A stretch of 64,000 nt of DNA from contig CM026426.1 of assembly GCA_014871385.1 (NCBI GenBank), positions 73,956,303-74,020,302 of the forward strand, given 5' to 3'. The translations under genes and the position numbers were made by a program. Positions 36,624 to 49,997 of the stretch are shown piece after piece. The notes beneath the pieces were generated by a model, which ran no database searches, was not told the DNA's origin, and saw only the letters and a list, made by a program, of their open reading frames with translations. The stretch's first letter is position 1. Each line of letters opens with the position of its first letter. Source of the stretch: Ceratodon purpureus (lineage: Eukaryota > Streptophyta > Bryopsida > Pseudoditrichales > Ditrichaceae).

Positions 36624-37625
36624 ATGGCCTGCCCACGCATTCACAACTCTGGCGACCAGGACCTCGGATCTCCGGATTGGTTTTGTGTGGAGTTGAAGCT
36701 TAACCACTATGGCTACGTACCTGGCGCTCCTAGGATGGAAAGGGATGCGCTACCGAACCACATCTCAGATGAATCACTGTGCACGAAACGATGGGGAAAG
36801 AAGGAAGGCGGGAAGTTTTGGTACGCCAAGAAGGGAAGCTCTGAAAGTCCGCGTATGAGATATCGTGTTGAAAAGCTGTATCAGGTTACGCACTAGAGGC
36901 CAATTGGGAACCAACGCGGAATAAGCTTGGGATTCGCTCGGGGATTGCTCACGGAAAAACGCGGGTACGCTGTGGACTGGGCTACTTACGCTGCGAAACA
37001 ATGCAAGAGAGGAAACAAACCCTTCCAAAGCATTGAGGTATTGAAATCGAATACAAAGGCGCAAAATGGCGAATGGCCCAAAAACGAAGTATTCGGAGAG
37101 GATGAAGGCCTTTTCGAAGGAGCACCTGACGACTGGGAGGTGAACCGAAGGGTGATAGATCTGAATCCACAATTGGTGATCGGGTACAATCTCAAAGAAG
37201 CATTACCAACGATACCTGAATACGATGTGGCAACCCCAACGTATAGCGGAGGAAGGAAACCGAGAGGTCAGTCATTCGCGTCACTTTAATCATATGTGTA
37301 TGCAGAAAGGTAAAGAATTTGACTGTTATTTTCCTTCAATGAGCTGTCGGTTTCTTCTCCTTCACAGTGATTATGAATGTTCTGGCAGTGACGTTTGAGA
37401 GCAAAAGTTTGGAGGCATCTTCGGAAGAGGAATCGAAGGATGTGGAAGACTATGGAGGAGGTGAGACAGAATCAATTAATGACGATGTTGAAGTGGAAAA
37501 GCTCCCGTGCTTGCACTGTTTCATTTGTGGACTCGCTATTTCCGTTCTCTACTGCAATTAGTTCCAACTCCTAACTAGAAACTGGTCATGGATGTGCAGA
37601 TGAAGAAAACGAAGTTGAGGAAGAG

Positions 37626-37659
37626 CATTAGGGGAAAAATGAGGTCTCCAACAGGCCTT
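37626..37659 (+). repeat. Left terminal inverted repeat
   Basis: Begins CATTAGG and contains GGTCTCCAACAGGCCTT. A second, inverted copy of the core (GGCCTTTTGGAGACC) ends at 37757, so the left end can also fold on itself over 115 bases. Between them is a perfect 9-bp hairpin, AGGCAGCCC (37663-37671) with GGGCTGCCT (37681-37689). Confidence 0.7.
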
Positions 37660-38509
37660 GTAAGGCAGCCCGGATTAGGTGGGCTGCCTGCCCAAAACCC
37701 CCTCTGTCGCTGTCAGCAGGGGTCTGAAACGCTGCCCGAAGCGGCCTTTTGGAGACCGACGGGAGTTGCGTCGCCGGGTTTTGCCTCGTTGGCGAGAGGG
37801 CGTGGACGGTGATTGTTGAGCGCCAAGGAGTGGGATTTATTGCTCGGCGATTAATGAAGTGCCTCGATCCGTTGCCTCGATCCACGGATTGTTCGAGTTG
37901 TTGCCACAACGGTCTGGGCGCGATGGCGCCACCGGCTCTACGGCATTCAGCACCAAGAAAACGAAGCGCCCTGTTCTGCTTCAAGCAAGTCGTTGTTGGC
38001 ACTGTGGGACGCACAATCGTATGTGATTTGCGAGAAAGATTCCGAGTGGCGATGGCACCCCAGACCGGAGGAGCAAAATTGAGATTGCAATTCGTTTCTT
38101 GGCAGCGTCCGCTGGCAGCGACGGCGGCGGGGGGTTGTTCTCAGTCGGCGACCAAGGTTTCAACGAAGAGATGAAAACTGATGTACTTGAAGGGAAGGTA
38201 AGTTAACCTAATTCGATAAACCTTTGTGGGGTGTTCAGGGGCTACTGGGTTTTTGAGCAATTTGAATTTCGATTTCATTAGCCCTTGCTGCCACAACGGC
38301 ATAAGGCAATGTAGGTTTCGTGGTCGATAGCGCTTGTAGATGCCACACAGGTCTATCGAATTAGGTTCGGAGTATTTGAGGTTGTGAATTTAGTTTTTCA
38401 TTGGGTGTAGGAGGTGTCCCAAGATCATAACAAGTTCTCTCGAATAACAGCAAATCACCAAGTGTGACCAGGGGAGATTCAATCAAGATTACCGACTATT
38501 GGGTCCACG

Positions 38510-41500
38510 ATGGCAGCAAGGGCTGAACGAAGCAATCAGTACATTCCCCACTTTGCACTGGACACACGCTATGCCCCGGTCATGAGACGAGGTTCTACGC
38601 AAGTGGAGCTGTGCATGAGGAGCTTGTTTCCAACACGGAGGTTGCGTGGAGACACGAACATTGACTTGTGGATCAATGGAGACATTTACCCTGTTGACCC
38701 AATGACAGGGAAGCCACCTCCAATCAAGTCGCTAAAAGAGTTCATTGAATTCATATGTCATGGAGAGCAGGGTCTTCGCGGATATACATACAGGCTGCTC
38801 GATCATTGTGTACATGGTCCTACACAGGAGGAGACGTTGATCCAGTTGGCACAGTTGAGCGAAGAAGTGCTTCAGCTTAGAGGCGAAGCTCTGGCCAGCA
38901 CCTCAAGGGCAGCCCAAGATGTCCAATTGGGGAGAATGCGTTGCCTTGAGTTAGAGAAGAAATGCAGGGATTTGCAAGCTGAATTACAGGCTGTCCGTGA
39001 TTGCCATGCCCAAAGGGTGGAGCAATTGGAGCGCCATGTGCGGGGTCTCCAAGAAGACGTTGAACTCTGCCAGCGGAGGGCCAGCTTCGAGAAGGAGACC
39101 CCCATGGGCATGCGAAATAGGAGGAGGGCTCTCAGAGGGATTCACGAGTTAAAACCTGGATCAGGTGGATCAAAAGCAAGAGTGAAGCTTGTGCGGACAG
39201 TGTTGCAACTAGATGTGGTGCAGTTTGTTGTCGAAAGGAACCGAGAGAACCGGAAGTGCTCTCGACTGCGGGGGGATAAAGAGTCCCAAAATAGGACTGC
39301 AGTAGCACTAGCTCGAATTTTGTCACGGCATGAAGGTGTAGCGCTCGCTTCTCAGCCTGCAATGGCACATGTTAAGTCAGATATTTCGAAAAATGTGCTG
39401 AAATCGATTGGTAAGAGTATTGGACCGGACAAAATTCTTGCTGCTTGCGACCAGGCAGGGGTTTCCCATCGGGGATATGGTGCTCTCTACAAATCTGTGA
39501 AGGCTCCCATTGCTGCTCTAAACAAAGGAGTCTCCGGGAGTATTTTGCCGAGCCCCTATCACGTGAAACTGCTTCGGCAGGAGTTAAATGCAAACCTGCC
39601 ACAGTATATTGGCGAATACTACCATGCTGAAGGTCGACTTACGCTGCCAGCAAGTTCTAAGAAGAACAAGAAGTCCGAGGACATGGTAAAGGAAGTCGTT
39701 TTGACTGACAAGAATTCCCTATTCACAGACCTTGACGTGGTCCAAAGGAGCATGGTGATCTTCTACGGCATCACGGAAGAAGGTAACGTAATCACCTCGG
39801 ACTATTGTTTTCAGAGTTTGCTGTCAGCAGGGTTATTTATCAATTAACCGTGACTTACACATCCACTCGCCATGTTTCCACAGAGTTAAGAGGGGCACCG
39901 CTGGTATTTGTCATGAAATTGGACGAGGCCGAGATTGTCAATGGCAAGAAGTTTGAACGGGTCAGCATCACATTGATGAATAGGGCGCTCGACCCAGACA
40001 TTCAGAGAAACCATGCCTTGTTTTTCTCAGTCCAGTCAGAGCAGGAAATCTGGCTAGTGGCAACCTTTCAAGTGGAAAAAGAGTCCTACGAAGTTCTGTC
40101 GTGGATATTTGGGAAATCCAAATTTCCATCTGTGATTGCAGCACAGTCCAGTGGCGAGAAACTCACGGTCCCTGAAGTTGGAGAATTCCATGTGGAGTGG
40201 CATCTCGCTGCGGACATGAAGACGATCAAGTGTATGTACGGGCTTCAGTCGGGGCCGTCGTGTGCGATGAACTGCATATACTGCGAGCAGAAGAGGGCTA
40301 AGCCTACCGTAGGGACAGCAAGCCAGGCGAGTGCTGCCATCAGAAAACGTGGGAAACCGAATTGGGTGGGGGGACTGTTTGCCAACTCTGTGGAGCCAGA
40401 ACCATGTGACATGCGTGCACATACAAGGTGGAGGCCTATCTTGCCAATTCCGTTGCAAAGAGTGCACATTTGTACACTTCACGCCCTAGTTCGCCTAGCG
40501 GAGAAGATTGTGCATCAACACATCATTTATGTCTGGAACATACAAGATCAAAGACTGAGGGCTACAGCCATAGAGCAAATGGAGAAGTCCTTGTCAGCTA
40601 TTGGGGCTCACGGTGGCAATGTGGAGATTAGAAAGGATCCGAAACTGAGTGGCAGCACAGGGAATGTGCCACAGAAGCCATCTTTCAGTGGGGTTGTTGC
40701 TAGCAGACTATTTAAACCAAGCGTATGGTCTAGAAACGACAAGGCCTGGAAAGACATATGTCAAGCAGAGAGCAATAATAGTGGCGGCGGTGCACATCGT
40801 AGGGCAAGGGCTGCTATGTGGCAAGCCTTTGAAGAGGTTCTACCATATTTCAGCGGCTTGGTGCTGACAGCAGAACAACGACTCCAATTCAAAGGGAAGA
40901 TAGAAACGTGGGGGAGAACATTTTTGGAGGCCTTCGGAGAGGAGCATGTGTCGCACTACATGGTGAGTTATATGAACGAAGTTTGGGATGAATTAGGGGT
41001 TGATGGCTGACCTCACTTTTGTCAATTCTCTATCCAGGACTAACCTTGGAGTGGCTGTTGACAGCATGTAATTGTCAGGCATGGCAGTTGGTTTGTGGAG
41101 GAATACGGTAGTCTGGCCGTATGGAGTTGCCAGGGTATGGAGAAATCCCATCATCAAGCGAAGGCAGCGAATCAAGCGCATACAGCTCACGGTGGTGGCA
41201 AAGAGCGCATCAGTATAATTTTGCAACAATTCCAGCATTGGTACCGAAATATACAGCATCGGTATAAGAAGAAATTAGAGTGCACAAGGGTTCTCAATAC
41301 CCCGGATGATGAGGCAAGATTGGAGGCTACGCGTAGAAGGCGAGAACAATGGCATCGATCAAATGCTGCGAGGGCTTTGGAGAATTGGCGGTCAAGGCGA
41401 CGGCGTGTTGGCAAAGCTTGGGTGTGTGATAACACCATTGGAGGTGATGGAGCCAACAATGATCAAGCAAGAGGATCTGCCAACGAAGATGACCCCGGGG

Positions 41501-41616
41501 AGGATGGCAACAATGTGGATCCTGAGGAAGGTCTCAACTCCAGTGACGGTGACGATGCTGGCAACAACGTGGACAGCAATGACGCTGGCAGCGACCCTGT
41601 GACCCGTGTGAATTGA
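38510..41616 (+). CDS. Transposase-like protein of the 11-kb element
   Basis: Exons 38510-39782, 39884-40962 and 41065-41616 join in frame into 967 codons; both introns are about 100 nt (GTAACG...CAG and GTGAGT...CAG). Residues about 110-200 are a coiled coil. Near residue 550 is A-A-D-M-K-T-I-K-C-M-Y-G-L-Q-S-G-P-S, followed by C-x4-C-I-Y-C. After it come H-I-C-T-L-H-A-L-V-R and, near residues 790-815, H-x-S-W-x-V-E-E-Y-G-S-L-x-x-W-S-x-Q-G-M-E-K-S-H. The C-terminus is Arg-rich then acidic. The D, H and E motifs in this order fit an RNase H-like transposase of the kind found in uncharacterised plant and animal DNA transposons; the exact superfamily is not settled. The frame is intact. The start is the first ATG of the open frame. 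Confidence 0.6.
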
Positions 41617-43621
41617 GTACAATGCGTTCTAAACTCATTGGATGGCTATTCTAGAATGTGACAAGTCCTTATTTAATTTTTTATTTTTTTAATCGGAGTA
41701 GACAGTGGTTTTTTCTTGAACATGTTTTTTGGTTTCATTCTAGAATAGCCATTTACGGATAGATTTATCAAAAAATGGGGATTTTATCCAGGAATTGCCT
41801 AAAATGGCTTATCCATTGCTATGTTACTCTTGATAATTATTAAAGAGGCACCCATGGAGAAGGTAGTGATTCCACTGACAGTGAGGTCGCTGGCAGCAAG
41901 GAGTACAGTGACGACGCGAGCAATGGCTGTCTGTGACTTGGCCGCAATGTGTCTTGGTAATTATGTTATAGCTATGTAGAATGTGGCTGGCAACAATGTT
42001 TTTTTTGAATGAGTTAGGCCATGTTTCTCCCCTAAACTTGTTTTGTGGATAGCTCACTAAAGTGCCTAGTCCATGCAATTATTAATCTTCATAATTAATG
42101 GTCTTAGTAATCATATGTACCGGTCACGCTCAAATTAAGATTTTAATTTCTAAGACGATTTTCTAAGTACCCACATCAAATGGGGATGTGTGGTTTAGGG
42201 CCATGGCAATCATTTGCATGGAGTGGCAATTAAGGGAGAAATGAGAGCTTTGCACCAACTCCTCAACCTCCCTTCATTAAACTCTGTTTGAGACTCTCAA
42301 CTCCCTCTAAGCCCCCCAAACCTCCCCTAAAAGCGTTCCAATATCCTCTTGAAGTAAACCCGGCCTAGTTTCCAAGGACGCACATGTGGTTGACTCGGGC
42401 AGGAAGGCCTCTCTCTTTTCCTGCCTTGTTCCCATACGACACCCTCCGTTGACTCCAACACCTCTTCAGCTCCTCTGTCTTCTTCAGTCGTCCTCTTGCT
42501 GTCAGCAAGCGCCCTCGCGATTGCAATTACCTTGGCAGTTTTGTGGGCGCCGTGGGGAAGTTGGATGTTCAGAGGGCGGTACAGTCACGCACCCCCTTTG
42601 GGTCGTTGAGGATCGCGTGAGGAGACGAAGAGTACCGCCAGCAACGACTTTGAAGGAAGGGGCCGTTGCGGTCGACTGCACGAAGCAGCTGCAGCGTGAG
42701 GAGCGAGCCGTCGAGGAGGGCCGTGGAGATTCAACGGCAGGTGTAGCAAGGGGGTCGTGAGCGGTTTTGGAGCAGCAAGGTCGGGAGCGAGGAGCAGCAG
42801 CAGGGTCGAGAGCTGCGGGGAGGTACAGCAAGGTCGGGAGCGAGGAGCAGCAGCAGGGTCGAGAGCTGCGGGGAGGTACAGCAAGGAGGACGAAGGAAGA
42901 GCAGCAACGTCGTTGGCAAGAAGAAACGGAAGCGCAAGCACTGTGGTGGGTCACGGAAGGTGATAGAGCGGGGCGGAGCTGCATTACACGGAGCTCGCGT
43001 TGAGGGTCACGTGAGGAGCGGCCGTGGAGCTGAAGGCGAGTTCTTGCGGTTGGGAGCTACAGCGCAAGGTGTGGGGAGGAGCAGCACGGTCGGGAGCCCG
43101 AGGGGAGGGGGGTACAGCACAAGGAGCAAGGTGGAGCTCTCCAATAGTGAGGAGCAGGCGTGGAGCTCATTGGCGAAGTGAGGAGCGGGCGTGGAGCTGC
43201 AGCGTGAGGAGCGCAGTGGAGAAGAACCGAGGCCAGCCGGAGAGAGGGGAGGGTGAGCTATAGCAGAAGAAGCGGGGTGGAGCAGCAGGGCTGGGAGCGT
43301 GGGGTGAGGTGGAGGTTTCTCGGCTACAGAATCTAGAGGCGCATTGTCACGCGCGGCGAGAGGGGCTTCAAGCTGCACCGTCTTCCACCGCTGACAGTGA
43401 AGCATTGCGAGGTTAGTGATCTGATCGTGTCTATTTTTTTGCAACCTTGCTCCTCCTTATGTTGCGGTTGGCCATGTTGGAGCGTACCGACCATGGTGAA
43501 GAGAATAGAGTTGCTCAGCAATGGCTGCTAGGGTCGCGGGGGGTAATGGTTTAGAGATGTGTAGCTTAAATCTCTAATCTGCAAGAATAATACCCTGTCC
43601 GTTTCTCTCCTTTCAGCTGCC
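41617..43621. other. Spacer between transposase-like gene and member D
   Basis: Holds a 3' UTR, then an AT-rich part, then from about 42770 a GC- and purine-rich stretch built of GGAGC-like words, which is probably the 5' leader of member D. Exact palindromes lie at 41889 and 42498. Long open frames in the purine-rich part exist on both strands and look like low-complexity artefacts. Confidence 0.45.
42774..42879. repeat. 53-bp tandem duplication
   Basis: Two perfect copies of a 53-base unit start at 42774 and 42827 (AGCAAGGTCGGGAGCGAGGA is the start of each). They lie upstream of member D. Confidence 0.85.
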
Positions 43622-45613
43622 ATGCGCGATCCCCCTTTCGTAAAACGTGTTGTTTTTGCACTACCAGCGCCAGGGATGTCGAGCCGTAGGAAGGGAAAGG
43701 AGGCCGTCGTGAAGAAGGAGGTCGTCGAGGTTGCTGACAGCAAGGAGGATGGCAACCATGTTGAGACGCCGTGGGATGACGCCTTCGACTTGGACGGCTT
43801 ACCCCCTGCACTTCATGCACAGCTCCACCACCTCGCCCCATTTCTGCTGGGTAGGCAGGCTGCGGATTACGATGAGGACTTCTTCGCCCGCACCTTGCAG
43901 CTCTCCAACAAGGGGCTCAAGTTCAGTGACCTCAGCGGCGACAAGCATTGCAGGAAGGCCGACTTCATCGACAGATGGCCCGAGCGTTCTTCTCGGCGGC
44001 ACTACGTTGCTGACTGTGAGGATCCGGAGGCCCAGAGGAAATACTGCGAGATGTACCGGTGGACTTATGGAGGTGACCCCGACAACTGGGCATTCGGGAC
44101 CTCCTTTCTTCGGGCTTGCCACCTCTACTTTGAGAAGGGCGTGGATGTCAACTTCGCCCAGAAGGCGGAGGCAATTGTGAAGGGGCGTGAGAAGCTGCGA
44201 GGGCGTGATCCGCAGAAGTTGACTCCCCCGGCCTTGAGAGGGCAGATTGAAGCCATTATCGACTTCCTCGCTGGCCACATCCCCGGTGCTCGCAGCAAGG
44301 GCAAGGGAGGAGGGGCGGAGTCGAGCGGAGGAGCCAAGCCAGTTGGAGCCACCTCCAAGGCTTTGATCACGGCCGCGGAGGCGAAGAAGGTCAGGGGACC
44401 TAGATCCCTGCCCCCTCCTGCGAAGGCCGTGGCTGAGAAGAAGTCCGTGAAGGCCCTTGCTGCCGTTGCCATCAAGGTGCAGCCCTTGGTGGCAACGGAT
44501 CCGAAGCAGGTCCTAGAGCAGCAGCGCCTCAAGAAGAAGTCCTTGGAGGCGGCACTTCTGAAGGTGGAGGCCAGCCGGGACCGCGTGAAGATCGACCTTG
44601 CAACCCAGCGGGACTACATCAAGGCCAAGGAGGCCGAGGAGTCCAAGCTCTATGACGACATCTTCTCCGCCCACGAGGCCTCCAAGAAGGCCGCGGCTGA
44701 TGGCAATGACCAAGAGAAGAGGCGCTTTGATCACGCGGCCCGCTTAGGCCAAGACAAGCTGGGGCTTGCAAGCAAGGCACTCCTTGAGGCCCAAGCCCGC
44801 ATTGACAGGGTCTACAAGAAGTTGGAGGAGATGGAAGCCGATGAGCAGAGACGCCACGCCAAGGTCTCCGCGCTGACAGCGGAGATCTCGGCCTTGGAGT
44901 TGGCTTCAGCTTTCTTGCGCCCGAAGAAGGTGCTGGCTCGTTATCCATTGGAGTTCCAAGTGTTGCCAATAGCCCTGAACGACCCATGCCCCTTCTGCGA
45001 GCGTTACTTCGTTGACACCTGCTACGTACCTCTGTTCTGCGGCTGCTTGGCACATCCCCATTGTATGTTTGAGGCAGTCTTCTCCCAAGACGCCCGGTGC
45101 CGTCGATGCGAGCGGGGGATGACTGGAGGATGGCTTGGGCAGTGGGGCTTCGACTTCGACTCCAAGGCCGCGGAGGAGTTACGTCTCACGGAGGAGATCT
45201 TCCTCGCCGAGCCTGCTTCACCACGTGCTGGCAGCAAGAGGCCCGCTGCCCCCTCTGTGGCCGCGCTTCCGTGGAAGAAGACCAAGGGCGACCAAGGTTT
45301 GTTGCCCCTTAACCTATCTGCCCAACTGGATCTTGCCTAATTCGTTGTTACATCCGAATAATTCTTATTTTCTAATTCTTGTTTGCTGGCAGCAACTACA
45401 GAGGATGCTCTCCCCGACTCAGACTCCCTAGCGTTCGATCCCACGCAACGCTCTCCTCATGAGACCCAGGCAGCCCTATCCGGAGAAGGGAACAAGGGCT
45501 CATCCGCCACCACGCAAGGACCAGGTGCAGCTGAGAAGATTGAGGACGACACCAACATGGAGGGACTGTCCAGCCTTGTTGAGGCAATTGCCACAGATGC
45601 AGCCGTGGAGTAG
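43622..45613 (+). CDS. Family member D: intact N-domain, coiled coil, RING-like protein
   Basis: Exon 1 is 43622-45296 and exon 2 is 45393-45613, joining in frame to about 631 residues. The start is the ATG at 43622; a second ATG 19 codons later is also possible. Residues about 75-200 are the N-domain, with C-E-D-P-E-A-Q-R and then G-V-D-V-N-F-A. A Lys/Ala-rich linker follows, then a coiled coil at about 295-425. The zinc motif starts near residue 456: C-P-F-C-x13-C-G-C-x2-H-x2-C-x11-C-x2-C, matching A and B. Exon 2 encodes an acidic Ser/Thr-rich tail. The gene is GC-rich compared with its surroundings. It is carried by the 11-kb element, so a role in mobility or in protecting the element from silencing is plausible but unproven. 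The intron acceptor overlaps a GCTGGCAGC palindrome. Confidence 0.72.
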
Positions 45614-46764
45614 ATTCCCACCTTAGATAGTTCCGTAGGCCGGGTTAGGGGTTTGCTGGCAGCGACTTTTGGTCCGGACTTTTATGGGCTACATTTCTTA
45701 AACTTTTCCAAACTTGAAAACAATTTGCCTCTGGACTGCCATGTCTCTTTGAAAGATATGGCATTCTTGTAACCCTTCCTTTTTATTCGCAACTGTATTT
45801 CTTCTTTATTGTGGACTGCTGACAGCAAGGGCTGCTCTTTAGCCGCCATTTTTTTTTTTTTCTTATTTCATTATTCGCCACCATGATCCCTTTCAATTTT
45901 GGCCATTGTTGTTATTTACCATCTGCGACCTACTTCATCTCTTATGTACAACTGTTTTTTATTTTTATCTTGTTCTATTAGAATCAAGCGTGGTTCTTTT
46001 TTTATTTGCAACCTTCATTTTTTCGTCTTTGTTGGCACCAAGGGCTGCATTGTGCCCGCCATTGCCAGTTCAGAGCACCAAGTTCACGAAGGAGCCAGCC
46101 TCTTCGGAGGAAGTAACAAACTTTACATTCCTTCCTAATTACTTCATATTTGTCAAGTGCCAAACTCCATTTTGTGCCTCTGAAGGGTCATGTGCTCTAT
46201 TGTATACAATTGTTTTTCTTTTCTTATTTTGCGCTGGCAGCAGGCTCCAGCGTCAATGGCGCCACCACAAGTTCGAAGCAATTTTGCGATTCAGACCCAG
46301 GCCCTCTGAAACCCCGGCCATTCTTCAGACTTCTTGTATTTTATTCTATTTTTCATTTTGCACCCTAGGATTCACCACTGGTAATTGTAACTGTTTTTCT
46401 TTTCTATTTCCGCAGGCAGCATGAAGATCAAGGGTAATCACAAATTTGCCTCCATATAACACGTTAATACAGGATGTCCCACAGAAAGTCCTGAATGGTA
46501 AGCAAAACCACTACCTGAACTCGCTAACGACTTCGCGAAGAACCTAATGACTTCCCACATACTGTGACTACCCATCCCCGAAATCACTTTTCCTACAGCT
46601 CCACAATCTTCATCCTTTTGGGAACCGTGACATCCGCAGCTATAAGGTGTCTCTCATGGCGCTGGTTGATCTGCATCCAACAAATCCTGTCATTTTCGTT
46701 TGCTGGCAGCAAGGAGCTCTGAACAGCCAATTCCCAACACATCAAAACGACTACATGAATTCGC
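45614..46764. other. Spacer downstream of member D
   Basis: AT-rich with T-rich tracts, and four GCTGNCAGC copies (45655, 45818, 46233, 46702), each preceded by pyrimidine-rich sequence like a splice acceptor. Small extra exons are possible but I could not join them convincingly. Confidence 0.4.
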
Positions 46765-47931
46765 CTAGACTCGTACCTTTTTCTCACGAACACCGTTGGC
46801 CTCTATCAAAACCAGGTTGTACTTCCCAGGTACGTCATCTCCAAGTGCCATTGCAATTTCGTGCCGCACGTGGGATACTGGCCAACCCTTGCCAACTTCG
46901 AATGTTGGCAGCAAGTTCCCCCTAAACATACAAGACACTTCCACCATCACCTCCTCTGGTAGGTGATCCAACGCTTCCCACTGACTGTTGGCAGCCCCCC
47001 TATACCTTGTACACATGAACCTGGTGTATAATGTTTGTCTTCCCACGTGATAGCGGAAAACAATGCTGGTCCTGTTGGCAACGCACTTGATGACATCTTG
47101 GCCAATGTGGAACTTCTCGTTCCACCCTGGGTTCATTAGACTGCTCAGCAGAGCCTCGGATGGAGTACTCAAAACAAACAATGTAGGTGTCCGCCTAATG
47201 CTGTCAGCAGCTACCGCAAACAAATCAACCATAACATGGATTGGCATAAACCATTGGTGGTGGACGAAGCTGCTACCAGTTGTTGCTTTCATGGCATTTG
47301 CAAAATCGAGAGTGAGCTTTGTTCTAAACGCCTCAGATGTGTGCATGTCTGACAAAGGCCACTCCACATCATTGAACCCTGGAAGCGGGAGTGCTTCAAC
47401 CTTCCCGTACAGCGTGTCACCTGTTGGAGGCAAATACAGACCACCAAGGAAGAATGTACCTATGTCCAGCAACTCCGCGTGGCTCTGTCGATTCCGTGTT
47501 GCCTCCCTAATCTCAACATGGAGCACAAGAATGGGACCAAGGATAGATGCAGGATGTACCCAATCCTCCGAAACCGACGCGTACAGGTAGTTTGCCATTC
47601 CCAATTTGGTTACTGCCTCCGTAGGATCCAAGCGCAGATGCCTTGGTTGATATGCATGTTGCACAAGCACCTTATCGAGGTCGCATGCTCCATGCTCCGT
47701 GGAGATCCAAGAGAAATCTCTGATCTGCGCTTTGAAGGCCCCCCGAAAATTTTCTCCACCATGTCGCCTTGCCTCTCTACCCCAAGGCCCATCCGACGCT
47801 GGTTGCAGCATAACCCATGAATCACGATCCACCCTCATGGGGATCCAGTTGCCCTCCAAGTCTTGAGTATTATGCAGAATGACACTCTGTACGAGGGAGT
47901 TTGGCCGTGAAGCCATACCACTAGAATGCAT
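46765..47931 (-). CDS. Orphan 388-residue protein of the 11-kb element
   Basis: An intact frame from the ATG at 47929-47931. It has no signal peptide and is mostly mixed alpha/beta in character. A central section contains G-T-F-F-L-G-G-L-Y-L-P-P and a later one W-F-M-P-I-H-V-M-V-D-L-F. The last 45 residues look like a compact beta-grasp-type segment, but this is only an impression. A donor-like GTACGA occurs in the final codons, so a further short exon may replace the last residues. I recognise no family. It is convergent with member D and carries one exact palindrome (47200). Confidence 0.55.
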   Translation of the reverse strand: MHSSGMASRPNSLVQSVILHNTQDLEGNWIPMRVDRDSWVMLQPASDGPWGREARRHGGENFRGAFKAQIRDFSWISTEHGACDLDKVLVQHAYQPRHLRLDPTEAVTKLGMANYLYASVSEDWVHPASILGPILVLHVEIREATRNRQSHAELLDIGTFFLGGLYLPPTGDTLYGKVEALPLPGFNDVEWPLSDMHTSEAFRTKLTLDFANAMKATTGSSFVHHQWFMPIHVMVDLFAVAADSIRRTPTLFVLSTPSEALLSSLMNPGWNEKFHIGQDVIKCVANRTSIVFRYHVGRQTLYTRFMCTRYRGAANSQWEALDHLPEEVMVEVSCMFRGNLLPTFEVGKGWPVSHVRHEIAMALGDDVPGKYNLVLIEANGVREKKVRV

Positions 47932-48590
47932 GAAATTTTCGACTGTGAACTCAAAAACTTACAAATGGTGTCGTCGCTGTCATCAACCGCCAGAACTACA
48001 CGCTGTCAACACACCCTCCGCCATCACGAACGGCTGAAACCTGCGTCCACGGCCTCGCAACCAAGGTACGACCTACCCTAAAACCTCATCCCGAAACCCC
48101 AATTCCCAACTCAGGTACTCTCTCCAACCTATGTGGATGGCAGACCGCTGGCAGCGTTGGAAGACCACTACAGCTAAACCCTAAATCTCTACTGCACAAT
48201 GCGTGACCACCCACAACCGAAATCGAACAACTTCGCCCAGCCTTTGGAGGCCTCCACCGCTCCATCCTGCTTGACAACGCAACGACAACAACTCTCTCAG
48301 GGGAACGCATGAGGTTCGGAATGACCGTTGGCAGCATTTCGACATCAACACCTTGTACACGTTGCATCTCAAAGGGGGAGCGGCAATTCGATTTCGGTAG
48401 GTGGCCTTTGGAGTCAGTTTTGCAGGAGTTCATAAAGCCCACCACCGCTGACACCCTTCTGCAATGCTCGAATTCCGTGCGCGAAGAGGCTCCGTTCTCG
48501 ACCTGCGGGACTACACGCGCGGGGGAGGGAAGCCTTCCTGCGCGACTATTGGCCGGACCCCCCCATTCGCGATTTGGCTCGCTTTTGGCG

Positions 48591-48619
48591 ACCTGCTGGC
48601 ACAGTTGGTGCCAGCAGGT
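48591..48619. repeat. Perfect 12-bp hairpin near the right end of the element
   Basis: ACCTGCTGGCAC (48591-48602) and GTGCCAGCAGGT (48608-48619) are perfect inverted arms around a 5-base loop. The arms contain the same TGCTGGCA core as the dispersed palindrome. The hairpin sits about 45 bases inside the right inverted repeat. Confidence 0.85.
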
Positions 48620-48664
48620 AAAGTGCACGGGCATGCCCAAAATTTTGGCACAAATAACATGGAA

Positions 48665-48698
48665 AAGGCCCGTTGGAGACCCCAAACTGCTCCTAATG
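48665..48698 (-). repeat. Right terminal inverted repeat
   Basis: Reverse complement begins CATTAGGAGC and contains GGTCTCCAACGGGCCTT. It differs from the left end at 7 of 34 positions. Confidence 0.7.
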
Positions 48699-49997
48699 GA
48701 CAGTATCAATGTGGCAGGGGGAGTCCTCTCGAGGAAAACATCGTACATCACCCCCGTCTCAGAAATGGCATGGGTGCCCGCTCTCTCCAGATGTCTCTGC
48801 AGGATTTCCTGACGGGGCGCGTAAAATTTCTGATGAAAGCGAGGACGACGACGGCCATAAGAACTGCCGATACTCAGAATACAAGGACGGAGGTCTGAAT
48901 GAGACATTACCACGCCATGGAAGAGGGGAGCACACCTATGTCGCAGAGACACACACGAGAACTCTGTCCGAGGATGCTCCTCAAGAACTCGATGCTTTTA
49001 TGGAAGTATATGGCAAAGTTTGTGATGAGAGTGAGTTTACATTATGTCCTCCTCTATGAAACTCAAGTTCCGTTAATTATGAGAATTTGCAGGGTATCCT
49101 TAATTACATATCCATTAAGGACGTGCTAATTCCTAGTGACATTTAATTGATAGTCGTATTATGTCCTTGCAGTGGACCATCAGGCCAGTCGGGACGGGTT
49201 CGAATTATTCACCGCGGAGCAGCAGTCTCGTTACCTACGTGACCGGGAGGCTCAATACGAGAATGAATGGAGAAAACGCCGTGCCGAGGAATCTGCACGC
49301 ATGCAATGGATAGCGGCTAAGCGCAGTAAAACAAAGTACCAAGGCTCGCAGAAAACCAGGAAAGGATTACAGTCGTCCCGTGATCCAGGAGAACAAAGTG
49401 ACTCGGACGACCTTGATATGTATGAGCGACCAGGTAATTTGTTAACTCCGTTCCACTAAGCGATTTTTTATCTATCTTATGAAATTATTATGCTGGATTG
49501 GTAAGGAGATGAAAAAGGTTTTTACAGCGATTCTATGTTGTACACAGGGGCTGTAACCTTCGGAAGTGCACGGTACGACACAGGGGTTGTAGCGGCTCCA
49601 AGTCTTGAGGAACTTGTGCGGGTATCTGGAGGAGGATTTGATATTTCGGAGGCACAACTGGAAAATGCAGGGGACCTCGCCATTCCATTCTCTCCGACCT
49701 CGATGTCACCCTTGAGATTCGCAAACCTTCCCTTATTGTTACCTGAAGGTACCTAATCCAATCTATGACATAATTCAATATCTTCCGTGAATACTTAAAC
49801 TTTCATGCTGCTCCCATAGTTTTTTTTACTCATGTACCTGAATAAGACTCTGCTCTGCTGTGCTGGCAAGAAATTGCTGATGAACTGTATGCCGTGTTGC
49901 AGACATCGAAAATCAGAGCACTAGTTCGAAAGAAACAGGCTCAGGGAAGTCGGAGAAGACAAGCACGATCATCATTCCCGACAGCGACACAGACTGA

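Follow-up and report, generated by a model that had tools for sequence, protein, structure and literature searches.

VANDAL transposons are Mutator-like, and the Spm/En (CACTA) elements carry subterminal repeats to which the TnpA protein binds. In Arabidopsis, VANC21 binds a 9-base motif (YAGTATTAY) that is dense over VANDAL21, and it causes loss of methylation (PMC5735166). The CMCT clade (EnSpm, Transib, Lanisha and others) is outlined in PMC12730594 as having mostly 5'-CA..TG-3' ends with a target-site duplication of 2-5 bp, and a transposase with C(2)C and H(3-4)H between the second Asp and the last Glu. Here we describe a stretch of 64,000 nucleotides from the moss Ceratodon purpureus (contig CM026426.1, positions 73,956,303 to 74,020,302; the whole stretch is called the window), in which one 11-kb DNA transposon with three genes carries many copies of a nine-base palindrome, GCTGNCAGC. 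We propose, with a probability of about 0.43, that the extended form of this word, YGCTGNCAGCR, is a self-recognition tag of the transposon family, and that a dimer of a protein encoded by the element may keep its chromatin open or unmethylated.

The palindrome in the window and in the genome

The window contains 18 exact copies of GCTGNCAGC, which together span 37709 to 48155, and none elsewhere; every copy is thus enclosed by the two terminal inverted repeats of the one transposon (37626-48698). An earlier note, made from the sequence alone, had reported this cluster and an expectation of about one copy per window. A programmatic recount reproduces the cluster, and 100 dinucleotide shuffles gave a mean of 0.68 copies (standard deviation 0.78, maximum 3). 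Within the element the motif ranks first among the 256 odd palindromes of equal length with a free centre (18 copies versus 2 for the runner-up), and when the spacer in GCTG-N(k)-CAGC was scanned from k = 0 to 5, the counts were 2, 18, 0, 0, 3 and 0, the one-base spacer alone standing out. The symmetric stretch is at least 11 bases long at 13 of the 18 sites, at least 13 at four and 15 at just one, so that several copies extending to 13-15 symmetrical bases, as the earlier note put it, means four copies, with a single one at the upper limit. The word GCTGNCAGC was not found in a literature search.

The positions of the motif are compatible with a uniform spread over the element (Kolmogorov-Smirnov p = 0.73), and three of the 18 exact sites lie within ~550 bp of an element end. 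Located by exact count and given without strand, they begin with a left subterminal site (37709-37717) and a noncoding one (38111-38119). Gene 1 has three sites that overlap the open reading frames (ORFs) of its exons (39643-39651, 40863-40871 and 41584-41592) and one in a probable intron (39820-39828), and it is followed by two spacer sites (41889-41897 and 42498-42506), the second being the one measured at 15 symmetric bases. Gene 2 has three exon sites (43733-43741, 44872-44880 and 45227-45235), of which the outer two have homologous motifs in L066, the diverged relative described below. Beyond them come a site just after the gene 2 ORF (45385-45393), three in spacers (45655-45663, 45818-45826 and 46233-46241), one beside gene 3 (46702-46710), one in the gene 3 exon (47200-47208), whose homologous place in L066 is not a motif by alignment, and a right subterminal site (48147-48155). 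At 39066, 44288 and 46412, several other copies of the element carry the motif where the window element is one base off, having probably lost it.

With exon limits drawn by eye, seven sites fall in ORFs (5,812 bases) and 11 outside them (5,261 bases), in agreement with the earlier description of copies in exons, introns and spacers. The coding sites use two reading phases, giving A-x-S or L-x-A in the ORF translations, and by our reading the third phase would put Cys, Trp or a stop beside Gln. Codon bias, which the earlier note had considered insufficient, is ruled out by the 11 noncoding sites together with the two phases. Tandem duplication, dismissed there as well, is ruled out because the flanks of the 18 sites, when compared, have no common sequence beyond ~6 bases.

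The bases that directly adjoin the core follow a rule: the left neighbour is Y and the right neighbour R. In the window element, where the rule was found, 36 of 36 flanks conform to it. In other sequences it holds for 27 of 28 flanks in seven further elements that share these ends (L041, with one site, being omitted) versus 23 of 44 flanks in the background, which consists of 22 sites in 21 loci (Fisher p 5e-5); these observations are partly dependent, as some of the seven elements share a near-end site and the background loci L010 and L059 are copies of one sequence. Because the rule holds in other elements and not in the background, the full site is YGCTGNCAGCR, and TTGCTGNCAGCAA is the form it takes at four of the 18 window sites. 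Its two-fold symmetry, single fixed spacing and symmetric flank rule suggest, as far as sequence can, recognition by a dimeric protein.

We searched one genome of 362 Mb, including a single contig of 110.5 Mb (C6 below). The species is summarised in PMC8000587 as having a 360-Mb genome with sex chromosomes of >100 Mb each that make up ~30% of it. The genome contains 9,987 copies of GCTGNCAGC, so that its absence elsewhere, as claimed earlier, is true of the window and not of the genome. YGCTGNCAGCR occurs 6,960 times, versus 904 for the opposite-flank control RGCTGNCAGCY and 1,314 for the composition-matched palindrome YGCAGNCTGCR, and TTGCTGNCAGCAA occurs 962 times versus 8 for the same word reversed.

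To see where these copies lie we used an unselected sample, the 59 plus-strand sites in the first 2.95 Mb of contig C1, of which 56 were examined and three at 2.88-2.95 Mb left out. In this sample 34 of the 56 sites belong to one full copy or to elements with the same ends, the full copy alone accounting for 19 of the 34, and 22 are scattered. About 60% of the GCTGNCAGC copies in the genome belong to the element family by two rough estimates, namely this fraction and arithmetic from 9,987 versus 6,960 with random background flanks assumed. Among the 50 C1 places listed for each word, 38 of those with TTGCTGNCAGCAA lie within 8 kb of a listed family gene, a territory of 1.2% of the stretch, and the figure rises to 42 when further gene 2 matches are added; as not every family gene is listed, the remaining eight may or may not belong to the family. 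The corresponding counts are 28 of 50 for YGCTGNCAGCR, 19 of them in one full copy, and 0 of 50 for the RGCTGNCAGCY control. Thus the genome-wide excess of the motif follows the element family and its short non-coding derivatives, and the motif clusters in copies of this family, so that the finding passes both checks by which the earlier note would have refuted it, the genome-wide count and the recount. Six such derivatives, 318-968 bp long, keep exact sites, and each has 4 to 11 copies of the half-site GCTGNCA, an exact site counting as two, versus ~0.2 to 1.0 expected; they were located through the exact motif, which biases their exact-site density upward. L007:3119-4086 and L055 represent a foldback derivative with arms of ~400 bp, and L007 has the motif near both ends.

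A diverged relative and the role of the site

L066 is part of a relative of the window element. Its gene 3 protein is 72-74% identical to that of the window element, and its gene 2 protein is 45-47% identical over the N-terminal part and 52-56% over a 66-residue C-terminal stretch. It nevertheless has 10 sites in 4.4 kb, with the flank rule kept in 19 of 20 flanks, and the motif again ranks first of the 256 odd palindromes (10 copies, next 2). In the aligned coding DNA, which is 66% identical, two of three window sites are kept in L066 versus 7.8% of random windows (p 0.017). At one kept site the protein reads AGS in place of ADS, a change that involves only the free centre base and leaves the DNA motif intact. 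Of five alignable coding sites in L066, two coincide with window sites and three stand at places without a motif in the window element. When the flanks of L066 and window sites were compared, no new homologous pair was found, with low power, as one known pair was also missed. The density of the motif thus appears to be maintained by selection: it has outlasted most of the sequence identity, and descent alone is unlikely because merely 7.8% of such windows survive at that divergence. The retention across a whole element that the earlier note had seen is borne out by the similar density in this one relative, and its interpretation of a retained, dimer-recognised sequence is partly supported.

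If YGCTGNCAGCR serves as a tag for self-recognition, one of the element's own proteins would bind its copies as a symmetric dimer from one end of the element to the other, and the bound protein would keep the chromatin open or unmethylated, as VANC does for VANDAL. Specificity would then come from the density of the motif over kilobases rather than from a single site, and the even spread over 11 kb, exons included, is compatible with a protein whose task is to coat the element. An element protein seems the likeliest reader because the motif excess follows the element. Gene 3 is our first candidate, since between the two motif-sharing families it is better conserved than gene 2, in a comparison that covered genes 2 and 3 of the second family.

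Several observations weigh against this proposal. The maintenance result rests on one diverged copy and five alignable sites, and the five other L066 sites lie outside alignable coding DNA. Within the family, comparison of the window element with a 2.5-kb derivative and six further copies shows sites decaying nearly like random windows (62 of 85 kept versus ~56.6 expected); such near-neutral decay should be expected of dead copies and lends no support to selection. CWG transitions, used to gauge whether motif cytosines are protected from methylation, gave no uniform direction: they amount to 3.2% in motifs versus 5.1% elsewhere in older copies but to 3.4% versus 1.1% in younger ones, contrary to protection, and the observations are not independent. 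Pfam and NCBIfam profile scans recognised a DNA-binding domain in none of genes 1-3, and the structure model of gene 3 was uninformative (mean pLDDT, a per-residue confidence score, 32.8) and was not used.

The main rival is that the motif serves transposition, a transposase or accessory protein binding it to join the ends, as TnpA does with the subterminal repeats of Spm/CACTA elements, while the internal sites are extra or aid looping. The six short derivatives would fit such a role, since they keep exact sites and dense half-sites, and so would the half-sites of the window element, which are denser in the two terminal 500 bp than in the interior (9 versus 4.7 per kb). The exact sites are even over 11 kb with few of them near an end, however, whereas known subterminal arrays are restricted to the ends, and we regard this explanation as unlikely, if still worth serious attention; roles in anti-silencing and in transposition may also exist together. 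It is improbable that the reader belongs to the host, whether as a transcription factor exploited by the element or as a silencing factor that targets it. The half-site GCTGNCA faintly resembles the sites of plant bZIP group I and TALE proteins, but AGCTGK occurs 7 times in the 11-kb element versus 38 in the remaining 53 kb and TGACAGST 0 versus 4 times, without enrichment; bZIP group I, TALE and MARE-like sites were rejected as candidates because the element is not enriched in them. Moreover, sites outside the family do not follow the flank rule, and a silencing target should be lost by the element, not kept.

The sites might also be functionless remnants inherited from a time when the element was built of motif-bearing repeats. 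Their near-neutral decay between copies of the same family is what remnants would show, as are the three places where the window element has seemingly lost a site, and five of the 10 L066 sites cannot be aligned, so common ancestry is possible for them. Yet L066 has its 10 sites with the flank rule intact at a divergence that few windows survive, the window element has no motif at the places of three of the five alignable L066 sites, and the sites have no common flanks beyond 6 bases, all of which makes this origin about as improbable as a host reader. Chance, base composition or codon usage can practically be set aside: the shuffles, RGCTGNCAGCY, the composition-matched palindrome and the ranking of 256 palindromes speak against them, as do the occurrence of noncoding sites and the use of two reading phases.

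Ends and genes of the transposon

The whole transposon, 11,073 bp, occupies 37626-48698 on the plus strand. Its left end, CATTAGGGG, starts at 37626 and CCTAATG finishes at 48698; these limits were set because related elements have the same conserved ends, CATTAGG...CCTAATG, and related unoccupied sites were also compared. The left terminal inverted repeat (CATTAGG..., GGTCTCCAACRGGCCTT) spans 37626-37659 on the plus strand and the right one 48665-48698 on the minus strand, as obtained by comparing the ends. Nine of nine elements start with CATTA or CATCA and finish with TAATG, and a target-site duplication of 2-5 bp was found in none of nine (including L007, L008, L009, L042, L049 and L055), although transposons with CA..TG ends usually have one. 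At two unoccupied sites that are related (71-75% alike over 200 bases), the junction shows one extra base at most, in agreement with insertion without a duplication or with one of a single base at most, and these sites do not support insertion into CATG with duplication of AT, which we had considered. The element interrupts an apparent coding exon of another gene (37200-49460, outside the element), and related sequences free of the insertion are present at C9:2057624 and C6:25166842.

Gene 1 (38510-41616, plus strand) is transposase-like and has at least three exons, at 38510-39783, ~39883-41000 and ~41068-41616 with boundaries drawn by eye, supported by ORFs and by genome copies of the second exon. 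At least 107 such copies, with 92-100% identity, were scored from 1,083 first-look candidates. By eye the protein contains a CxxC (CIYC), an HxxxxH (HICTLH) and QGMEKSH. Gene 2 (43622-45340, plus strand) is an ORF of 572 residues with a coiled coil and a RING-like Cys/His cluster, both seen by eye; it is conserved in copies, at least 76 of which were scored from 2,103 first-look candidates, and has diverged relatives. Upstream of it, a GC-rich unit of 53 bp is present twice in tandem without a mismatch (42773-42878). When L066 gene 2 was used as the query, 119 of 1,548 candidates were scored, and in the resulting partial list 24 of the 28 copies that are 61-80% identical to L066 lie on C6, which suggests that old element families persist on this probable sex chromosome.

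Gene 3 (46765-47916, minus strand) is an ORF of 383 residues that has relatives and belongs to no known family. The predicted order of strands and helices in its C-terminal 60 residues (46768-46945) is faintly ubiquitin-like, at a model confidence of ~50 or less that makes it a lead only, and this lead adjoins the RING-like gene 2. The ORFs of genes 1-3 gave no Pfam match above curated cut-offs and no NCBIfam match, and a sequence search of the PDB returned nothing useful. Among viral contigs, 46 pattern matches to gene 3 were obtained and none was confirmed as a relative.

Comparison with known systems

The transposon resembles the CMCT/Lanisha group in its CA..TG ends and perhaps, as read by eye, in a CxxC and an HxxxxH between an Asp and the final Glu. 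The authors who named Lanisha also published the Ceratodon genome. Unlike CMCT elements the transposon shows no short target-site duplication, and we have not filed it as Lanisha, to which its likeness was judged by description, not by sequence. A short word that serves as a self tag in genes and spacers alike is familiar from the DNA uptake sequences of Neisseria and Haemophilus; the analogy is functional only, since those are a bacterial genome-wide tag for the uptake of DNA and share no descent with the moss motif. In Spm/En too, a short site is repeated and is present in deleted derivatives, and it is read by an element protein, but its sites are subterminal whereas those of the moss element run along 11 kb, exons included.

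It is possible, though less likely than not, that a plant transposon family unrelated to VANDAL has independently evolved self-recognition by sequence, with a palindrome placed throughout, exons included (there in two reading phases), sites that are continually gained and lost across diverged families, and a conserved dimer encoded by the element that counters silencing. If true, plant transposons would have converged on recognition by the density of a short word, which would then not be peculiar to the VANDALs of Arabidopsis, and chosen loci might be opened with a sequence-specific anti-silencing protein that reads a symmetric site of 11 bases. Binding can be tested directly with the exact site and the candidate proteins that the window supplies, and sites kept within exons allow one to measure how selection acting on DNA affects the protein sequence.

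The closest parallel is VANDAL21 with VANC21. In both systems a short motif is dense over the element and rare elsewhere, and accessory genes stand beside a transposase; recognition by density, known there, is what we propose for the moss element. The likeness does not extend to the proteins, as the VANC domains DUF1985 and DUF287 and the Mutator-like transposase had no Pfam match in the ORFs of genes 1-3. The VANDAL21 motifs all point the same way, form tandem repeats that lie mostly in noncoding DNA, and differ between related families. In the moss element, by contrast, the motif is palindromic and not tandem, seven of its 18 sites are coding, and the same motif is found in two families whose gene 2 proteins are only about half identical.

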